Source of the DNA: Thunnus maccoyii
Lineage: Eukaryota > Chordata > Actinopteri > Scombriformes > Scombridae
Assembly (NCBI RefSeq): GCF_910596095.1
Contig: NC_056555.1
Location: 9,859,501 to 9,923,500 of the forward strand
DNA: 64,000 bases
Reading direction: 5' to 3'
A program made the position numbers and the translations under genes. This document shows positions 59,701 to 62,700 of the stretch, piece after piece. The notes below the pieces were generated by a model. The model saw only the letters and a program-made list of their open reading frames with translations, made no database searches and was not told the origin of the DNA. Every line of letters begins with the position of its first letter. Position 1 is the first letter of the stretch.

Positions 59701-62700
59701 TCATGGTCACAATCTTCCCTGCTCCGCTTTCTGGCAATCTGTGTGTTGAAGGACGACTTCCTGGAAGCAGACATCTGAGCCACCATCTGCCCCCTCAGCC
59801 AAGCGACGAAGGAGGTCGTCCCCCGGGCCCGTTATCGTCATCAAGGACGAACCAGAGGATGAGGACGAAGTTCGTTTTGTAAGAGAATTACTTGGGTTTT
59901 ATAAGTTTTCAGTTTTCAAAGTTAAAAGGCTGTTCTGTCTTCTGAATCAGGCCAATGCCAAACAGTTGGATTGGCAGTTTCTTTGACTGTATCTCTCTCT
60001 GCCTACAGGTGCAGTCCAACCTTCCAGACAGCAGCACCGGGGCTCAGTCCAAACCCCGTCAGCAGCTGAAAGTCTGTCCCCAAGTCCCAGCCCCTCGATC
60101 GGACCTCACCCCCGGGAAAGAGCAGCATCCTCAACCCGCAGCCCAGCAGCCGGAGTCTGAAAAGAGAGCGGAGCCGGAAGAAGATCCTAATGAGGACTGG
60201 TGCGCCGTCTGTCAGAACGGAGGGGAGCTGCTCTGTTGCGACAAGTGTCCCAAAGTTTTCCATCTGTCCTGCCACATCCCCACTCTGAACGAGTCCCCCA
60301 GGTGAGAGACAAGCCGTCTCTCAGTGCCACAGGGATTATAAACATTAACAGCTATAGTTGCACAATTATACGACCATCCAAATGCTGTTGGACCAGTAAA
60401 TTTAATTGAAAGAAATGAATAAATAAATAATACGGTCCCTGAGGGAGAGTGTTTAACATGAAATGCAACCTGTTCTGATGTTTTATAAAGTCATATTGTC
60501 TGCTGTGGGAACTGTTTGTACATTTTATTATTAAAAAAGACTTAATTTGATTGTATTCCTTACTTACCAGCCTTGAAGCATAGTTACCATTATCATCATT
60601 AGTATATCAACATCTTATAGGGGTTTTTTTGTTAATTCTAAATCAAATGTTGCAGATTTTTTAATGGTTATTTATTCTTGTGGTGGTAGCAGGTATAAGA
60701 GCTTCAGCTTGAGGTTACTGTTACTTTACCTTGAACTTTGTGATCAACCTTGACAACATAACTACTGGTGTTGTTGCCAATTTAGTCTTGAAGTGTATAA
60801 GGTGATATGTACAACCTGAGAAGTGTGTTTAATTTAGTTCTTTAAAATAAGGTTTTGTATAGCTTATAGTAATTGTAGAAGTCTTTTATTACGTAACAAT
60901 TAAGATTTGTTACATTTGATGATATTGACTGTAAGTACATCTGACAAGCATGATAGAAAAGTACAAAAAAAAGATGGTACCCAAAATGATTTGGCAGCAG
61001 ATTATACGATATGTCAGACATGTTGGATATCATCGTACAATATGTACAGTTAATTCTTCTTTCTTACGTTTCTCATTTACAGTATCTAGATTCTAATTAT
61101 AGTAGCTTTAAAATTGTTTACTGTACAAAACTCAATCAGAGGAGTAGTTTGCGTACATTTCTACTGCTGATGAGGCTGCTGACAGGCTGTTCTCCAGGTC
61201 TTGTCAAGGACTAAGCTTGACTGGTCTCTGCACTCAGCCTGGTGTCAGATTCAACAGTGGTTTGCCAATCCATGCATCGTCCTAATCGCTCTTCCTGTCC
61301 TTACGTCTCTCTCCTCAGCGGCGAATGGTTCTGTTCATTCTGCCGAGACCTCATCTCTCCTGAGATGGTGTACGACTGCGACAGCAAGGACGAACCCGGG
61401 GCTGAGAGATTGCCACCTGTTGACAGAAGGGTACTCTCATGTCACGCCATTTACATTCCTGTTTTGTGTTTTGAGATATATGTTTTCTACTTGATTCCCC
61501 CAATCATCCCCCATCAAACAAATTTCATGTCCTCTTTTTCTCATTTAAACATGTAGAGATGTGAGAGGCTGTTACTACGTCTGTTCTGTAATGACTTCAG
61601 CACCGACTTCCAGCAGGCTGCTTCTCCATCGGTAAGACACTGTTTTCAATATTTTGTCAATTAAGTTTTTCTTTAAAAAGGCAATCAGTAAGGAAATTAC
61701 TGATTTTAAAATATGTGGATGAGTACAAGTATACCAAAAAGCTGCAGAATATTTAAAAAAACAAAACAATATAGGCTCTTAGTGAAAGAGATAACTTGCC
61801 ATCCAAAACAAATAAAAAAGAAGCTGTAGTTCTTTGTTTGTGAGGTCGTATTAAGTGCTAAACCTGTTGTTTTTCTTATGTAGGAGACAAGAAGGTACAA
61901 AGAGCTGATCAAGACCCCGATGGATTTATCAATAGTTAAGAGGAAGCTGGAGTCAAAGCTGAAGGAGGGTGAATGTTACGTCAGTCCTGAGGGGTTTGTC
62001 GCTGACGTCAGACTCATATTTCTCAACTGTGCAAAGTACTACAAGGTAGGATTGGTTTTCATTAAACATCCCTTTTGGAAGCAGTGACCAGCAAAAACAA
62101 AATCATTGTGGTGTTATATCATAAAACATTTGGTAACGTATTTCAGTTTATTGGCATACTCAATCATTTGCAGGTGTTTTCTTGAGCTGTAAGTTTTATA
62201 AAACAGTTGGTATTTTAAAGTACATCATTTGATTTTTACTGACATTTCTGTGCACTGATTATTCCAGGCGACCTCAGAGGTGGGGAGTGCAGGCTTGTAC
62301 TTGGAGGACTACTTTGAGGAACAACTGAAGCTTGTATACCCAGACAAGATTTTTCCCGGAGGAAGGGAAGAACAGATGATCCCTCCTTTAGAGGATGAGA
62401 TAGATGAAGAGGAGGAACAGGTGATGGACGAAGGTATGGCTCCCATAGAGGACGATAAACCAGCAGGTCCTGCGGGGAAAGGAATCCCCCCTGTAGAGGA
62501 GGACTTAGCTCATCCAGAAGAAGGAACAGCCCCGGCGGAGGGAGAAAAGCCAGAAACGGAGGAGAAGGTGGCCGATACGAGCATAAAGGGAACGGACCAA
62601 AAGGTAGCGGCCGCAGAGGAAGGCATGCCGCCTGCGGAGGAGGTAAAGCAGGATGAGAAAACTCCTTCAGAGGAGGTGAAAAGTTCTCCAGCTGCTGATA

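Follow-up and report, generated by a model that had tools for sequence, protein, structure and literature searches.

A trim24 gene of Thunnus maccoyii with tyrosine at the acetyl-lysine anchor of its bromodomain beside a conserved PHD finger

Atypical anchors in human bromodomains and the present locus

TRIM24 (TIF1-alpha; PDB 3o33 and 9gd5) is a well-studied dual reader of H3K4me0 and H3K23ac, and a drug target. With H3K23ac, no signal was reported to be detected for its N980A mutant (PMC4578755); N980F is reported to lower binding more than N980A does, and Trp828 to be required for H3K9me3 reading (both PMC9594046). The PHD fingers of the TIF1 family are described as holding H3K4 through Asn-Glu-Asp (PMC6753139).

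Bromodomains lacking the anchoring Asn are already known. By one published count, 13 of 61 human bromodomains are atypical, with Tyr, Thr or Asp in its place (PMC5977933), and 12 of these 13 are said to carry Thr or Tyr, which can in principle form a hydrogen bond (PMC9594046); for Tyr, replacement of Asn as the hydrogen-bond donor is likewise described as possible in principle (PMC3326523). Human SP140 and SP100 (PDB 6g8r and 4ptb) have Tyr at the anchor position in our alignment of the PDB sequences. The SP140 PHD-Brd module is reported to bind unmodified H3(1-21) best, K14ac having no effect and K9ac weakening the binding, although a peptide array also showed binding of some acetylated H3 and H4 peptides (PMC9392322); another study describes most peptides as bound nonspecifically (PMC3326523). 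In TRIM33-alpha a 17-residue insertion is reported to place the Asn outside the pocket, yet its binding of H3K18ac is about equal to that of TRIM33-beta (PMC9594046). Anchor loss in fish TRIM24 was found in none of the papers listed, at the level of titles and abstract beginnings, in searches combining TRIM24 with fish or with the anchor residue.

In the present study we analysed a stretch of 64,000 nucleotides of Thunnus maccoyii (C23:9859501-9923500 in the 782-Mb assembly; hereafter the window), which contains a gene that we assign to TRIM24 and call trim24a. It shares with human TRIM24 the domain order, a PHD finger identical at 42 of 49 residues and bearing NEDW, a bromodomain that is about 50% identical, and a neighbouring AKR1D1 gene, which adjoins TRIM24 on human chromosome 7 also; unlike human TRIM24, it has Tyr for Asn980, a changed ZA wall one residue longer, no LxxLL and another C-terminal tail. 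SP140 and SP100 resemble it in a Tyr anchor next to a PHD finger, and SP140 in its reported preference for unmodified H3, but they are other proteins with another ZA loop, and the shared Tyr looks convergent. Human TRIM28 (PDB 2ro1), also of the TIF1 family, has Thr instead of Asn at the anchor and an altered ZA loop; it differs in having no NED motif and, as described, an unusually short ZA loop (PMC3326523), and is itself reported absent from ray-finned fish (PMC11603059). TRIM33-alpha likewise has a TIF1 bromodomain without Asn in the pocket, but there the Asn is present and only displaced.

The trim24a gene and its bromodomain pocket

The gene is intact: 19 exons, joined by hand with splice sites read from genomic DNA, give an open frame of 1072 aa with 18 GT-AG introns (Table 1). 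Pfam matched RING, B-box (two stretches), PHD and bromodomain (PF00439, 51.4 bits against a cut-off of 21.7), a PML-like coiled coil remaining below cut-off, and in a PDB search residues 38-389 matched the TRIM28 RBCC chain. The AKR1D1 neighbour lies on the minus strand at about 50.7-51.4 kb of the window; its first three exons, when joined, are identical to human AKR1D1 at 92 of 126 positions and score 208.7 bits in the PDB search, against 156.3 for the next protein. An LxxLL nuclear-receptor box is expected of TRIM24, and none occurs in trim24a or in the second copy described below, trim24b (954 aa). The TIF1 C-terminal motif had no match on the plus strand of 61001-64000, an acidic tail standing there instead (62352-62837, with much Glu, Pro and Ala and 44 acidic residues among 162); fish trim33 retains this motif by comparison with the human tail. 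At gathering thresholds, Rfam gave no match over the whole window. Next to trim24a there is also a PHD gene that looks like kdm5a, and an open frame on the minus strand at 18037-18537, with no Pfam match, looks similar to the end of a LINE reverse transcriptase of fish on the C-terminal side. The neighbourhood of the window copy was recorded at window positions 26330-26788 and 50700-51400, the latter that of AKR1D1.

Table 1. Coordinates of trim24a features in the window, and of trim24b
Feature	Position	Strand	Remarks
trim24a coding region	53778..62840	+	RING-B box-B box-coiled coil-PHD-bromodomain; exon model, Pfam, AKR1D1 neighbour
PHD finger, residues 729-777	60189..61352	+	split by intron 60302-61318; NEDW (H3K4me0 motif) retained
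Exon 17: helix Z and beginning of ZA loop (25 residues), with A923D, V928A and the inserted residue, all shared with trim24b	61557..61631	+	
Exon 18: remaining ZA loop, helix A, AB loop, helix B (ending NCAKYYK)	61884..62045	+	
TAC, Tyr881, acetyl-lysine anchor position (human Asn980)	62040..62042	+	HMMER, MAFFT
Intron 18	62046..62267	+	in-frame stretches flanking exons 18 and 19 without Asn
Exon 19: end of BC loop, helix C, Glu/Pro/Ala-rich acidic tail (from 62352)	62268..62840	+	
trim24b	C5:10722223-10732543		18 exons, 954 residues; open frame, two GC donors

By elimination the gene is probably TRIM24, since fish trim33 and trim66 pair with their own human orthologs (100/99 for TRIM33; 99/98 for TRIM66 with TRIM28 left out). 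The PHD-bromodomain tree gave no supported grouping of the fish and human TRIM24 sequences, and the 105 differing RBCC sites divide into 28 matching TRIM24, 26 matching TRIM33 and 51 matching neither; a separate fifth TIF1 lineage is conceivable. We regard trim24a and the second copy, trim24b, as co-orthologs of TRIM24. Zebrafish tif1alpha is described as lying in a region with predicted synteny to human chromosome 7, and as relatively divergent from mammalian Tif1alpha (Ransom et al. 2004, PMC509301), and a 2024 study presents TRIM33 as distributed among Actinopterygii and well conserved, contrasting it with TRIM24 and TRIM66 (PMC11603059).

The original prediction had put a Tyr at the Asn980 position, and HMMER and MAFFT agree on this with no adjacent gap, although the residue, given there as about 889, is 881 in our exon model. 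The exon junction that it had read was confirmed as well, exon 18 ending at 62045 and exon 19 opening at 62268 with ATSEVGSAG, with AG/GT splice sites. No other Asn was found at the anchor: Asn876, of NCA, aligns with a different Asn, in helix B, which is present in human TRIM24 too, and is therefore no substitute. The pocket differs from that of human TRIM24 by L922T, A923D, V928A, V932T, F979Y and N980Y, and retains F924, Y935 (Tyr833 in the fish), C976 and V986. Because L922, A923, V932 and F979 are variable also among other TIF1 sequences, V928 and N980 are the most telling; among the aligned TIF1 sequences outside the trim24 copies, only human TRIM28 also lacks the Asn. The ZA loop, which had been called degenerate, is indeed altered and one residue longer than in human TRIM24, but the ungapped pairing of human YYK with fish RYK was wrong: gapped alignments place the fish insertion to the left of it and keep Tyr935. 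The helix-B, PMD and AB-loop motifs are retained in this bromodomain. As the helix-B signature and the P-hydrophobic-D motif, both named as bromodomain features by Filippakopoulos et al. (PMC3326523), are kept, the trim24a bromodomain should fold, atypical though its sequence is.

Within the window, neither intron translation nor tblastn brought to light an exon structure or splice option that restores Asn. Three-frame translation beyond exon 18 ran through 13 in-frame codons to a stop without an Asn, and before exon 19 the intron meets an in-frame stop at the fourth codon upstream, again with no Asn in the stretch. With the human TRIM24 bromodomain as query, tblastn matched exons 18 and 19 at E values of 2e-11 and 5e-5, and exon 17 only weakly (9.0, or 0.81 with TRIM33); the other matches had E values of 0.3 or more, and none made a convincing second bromodomain exon in the window.

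Paralogs, duplication and the contrast with the PHD finger

A bromodomain search of the same genome returned eight matches at E up to 0.001, namely three window exons and five others. Three of the five belong to TIF1 genes with the anchor Asn (NCAKFN on C1, trim66-like; NCAKYN on C4, trim33-like; NCATFN on C5, trim66-like); the other two, both on C18, we take to be SP100-type and CREBBP/EP300-type genes. A PHD search gave 36 matches, one of which uncovered a further TIF1 gene on C5, trim24b, missed by the bromodomain search. The matches followed up were those in the known genes, in trim24b and on C12 and C6, the remainder being mostly under 55% identical; no TIF1 bromodomain lay within roughly 20 kb around the matches on C12 and C6. 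Pattern scans for trim24 of other fish matched 21 stretches in genome contigs and 19 in viral contigs, none of them a confirmed relative.

In trim24b the anchor is Ser900 rather than Asn, the Tyr935 position is Thr and the PHD finger reads NEVL instead of NEDW, with a Pfam bromodomain score of 48.1 bits. Exons 9 and 10 are fused, the tail beyond the bromodomain is very short, and the RING cysteines are present; Boudinot et al. 2011 (PMC3137616) mention a fish trim24-like gene that has no RING. The RBCC regions of the two copies are identical at 250 of 343 positions and joined at 100/100 in the RBCC tree, on a common stem of 0.50 compared with 0.12 and 0.25 afterwards. At both loci, among the matches listed, an SLC6A-type transporter gene lies upstream on the minus strand and a calcium-binding-EGF (fibulin-like) gene downstream on the plus strand, and these flanking genes keep identical order and orientation, the pattern that a segmental or whole-genome duplication would leave; we infer the teleost whole-genome duplication to be the source. 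The two bromodomains have in common E to D, A923D, V928A, the ZA insertion and M to C, found in none of five other TIF1 sequences, and these shared changes, with the matching neighbourhoods, place part of the pocket erosion before the duplication. Tyr and Ser can each be reached from Asn by a single base change, so that the Asn itself may have been lost either before or after.

The PHD finger tells another story, and was rightly predicted to be well conserved. NEDW stands intact at residues 729-732, with Asn-Glu-Asp and Trp828, the predicted H3K4me0 contacts, retained, and the identity to the human ortholog (42/49) is the highest among the fish genes compared: 37/49 for trim33, 39/49 for trim66a, 37/49 for trim66b and 33/49 for trim24b against TRIM24, although the differences between trim24a and its three paralogs are not significant. 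For the bromodomain the figures are 50-51/101 in trim24a, 67/102 in trim33, 71/102 in trim66a, 70/102 in trim66b and 48/101 in trim24b. The deficit of trim24a is significant against trim33 (Fisher p 0.023), trim66a (0.004) and trim66b (0.007), but not against the human TRIM24-TRIM33 pair (63/101, p 0.12). The contrast between the two modules peaks in trim24a, with z of about 2.1 to 2.4 on log odds (which is not a strong test), and is less clear in trim24b. The RBCC region is fast as well, with 195 of 343 residues identical to human in trim24a versus 255 of 343 in trim33 (p 2e-6; the fish trim33 sequence being pieced together from local matches). By sequence, the trim24a PHD finger is a conserved island in a fast protein in which the bromodomain is not the sole weak spot. 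The idea that bromodomain drift is a mere consequence of general fast evolution is softened by the PHD/bromodomain contrast of the paralogs in the same genome.

Readings of the altered pocket

We consider it probable that the trim24a protein reads unmodified H3 chiefly by its PHD finger, and that its bromodomain, while still folding, has lost canonical acetyl-lysine reading or had it strongly weakened, through an erosion that began before the duplication. With Tyr at the anchor and a changed ZA side (A923D, V928A, V932T and one inserted residue), canonical reading would be lost or weakened; occlusion of the pocket is the simplest expectation, since Tyr is close in size to Phe (Phe plus a hydroxyl). 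Engagement of chromatin would then be led by the PHD finger, as the effects of N980A and N980F, the retained Asn-Glu-Asp and the analogy with SP140 suggest, and the bromodomain would serve mainly as a structural, scaffold-like partner of it. The trim33 and trim66 copies, with canonical anchors, could carry the acetyl-lysine reading of the family. Counting against this reading, Tyr may itself act as a hydrogen-bond donor, TRIM33-alpha binds acetyl-lysine with its Asn displaced, SP140 with its Tyr anchor bound some acetylated peptides, part of the pocket survives (F924, Tyr935 and V986), L922, A923 and V932 vary elsewhere among TIF1 sequences, and the change, the RBCC being fast, is not confined to the bromodomain. 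As to the predicted change of the dual-reader model, the kept PHD contacts, the absent anchor, the altered ZA loop and the Asn of trim33 and trim66 in the same genome speak for it, whereas its extension to fish TRIM24 in general goes beyond the one species here. The TRIM24 of this fish probably reads chromatin differently from that of human. A bolder version, which we offer only tentatively and are inclined to doubt, is that TRIM24 gave up acetyl-lysine reading in the teleost stem before the teleost whole-genome duplication, so that teleosts in general would have a trim24a reading H3 by its PHD finger only and a trim24b reading by neither module, with dual reading left to trim33 and trim66.

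An unlikely alternative is that the bromodomain still reads acylated lysine in a non-canonical way, by the hydroxyl of Tyr881 or by Tyr833 and a water, perhaps with altered specificity. The Thr or Tyr anchors of most atypical human bromodomains, the binding by TRIM33-alpha without Asn in place, the kept F924, Y935 and V986 and the acetylated peptides bound by SP140 on the array all lend it some credit. Yet human N980F is reported to disrupt binding (PMC9594046), A923D introduces a charge next to the shelf, the ZA wall is altered by V928A and the inserted residue, and the Ser of trim24b means that Tyr is not a feature of both copies.

Less likely again is neutral drift, by which constraint on trim24 would be generally relaxed, trim33 would have taken over and the bromodomain change would mean little. 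The low RBCC identity of trim24a to human beside that of trim33, the want of LxxLL in both copies, the TIF1 tail present in fish trim33 and not found in trim24a, and the PHD contacts lost too in trim24b agree with such a course; but the top PHD identity of trim24a, the open frames over 19 and 18 exons in trim24a and trim24b, and the helix-B and PMD motifs retained in trim24a do not. A sequencing or assembly error, a wrong exon model or an isoform restoring Asn seems highly improbable. The exon model was indeed made by hand from genomic DNA alone, but several pocket positions differ, for which a single sequencing error is insufficient, the splice sites are GT-AG, no other convincing bromodomain exon lies in the window, and the in-frame intron stretches beside exons 18 and 19 are without Asn.

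If the fish copies indeed have no acetyl-lysine reading, results in fish models may not be informative on inhibitors of the TRIM24 bromodomain, and the TIF1 family would offer a natural test of a PHD finger acting alone. With two Asn-less copies beside three Asn-keeping TIF1 paralogs, the question is directly testable in one animal.

Among the side observations, a bromodomain exon at C18:9116556-9116762 with the SP100-type PMWL motif has Asn at the anchor (NCASYN), the position at which human SP100 and SP140 have Tyr, and in SP100-type genes the change from Asn to Tyr may have happened separately.
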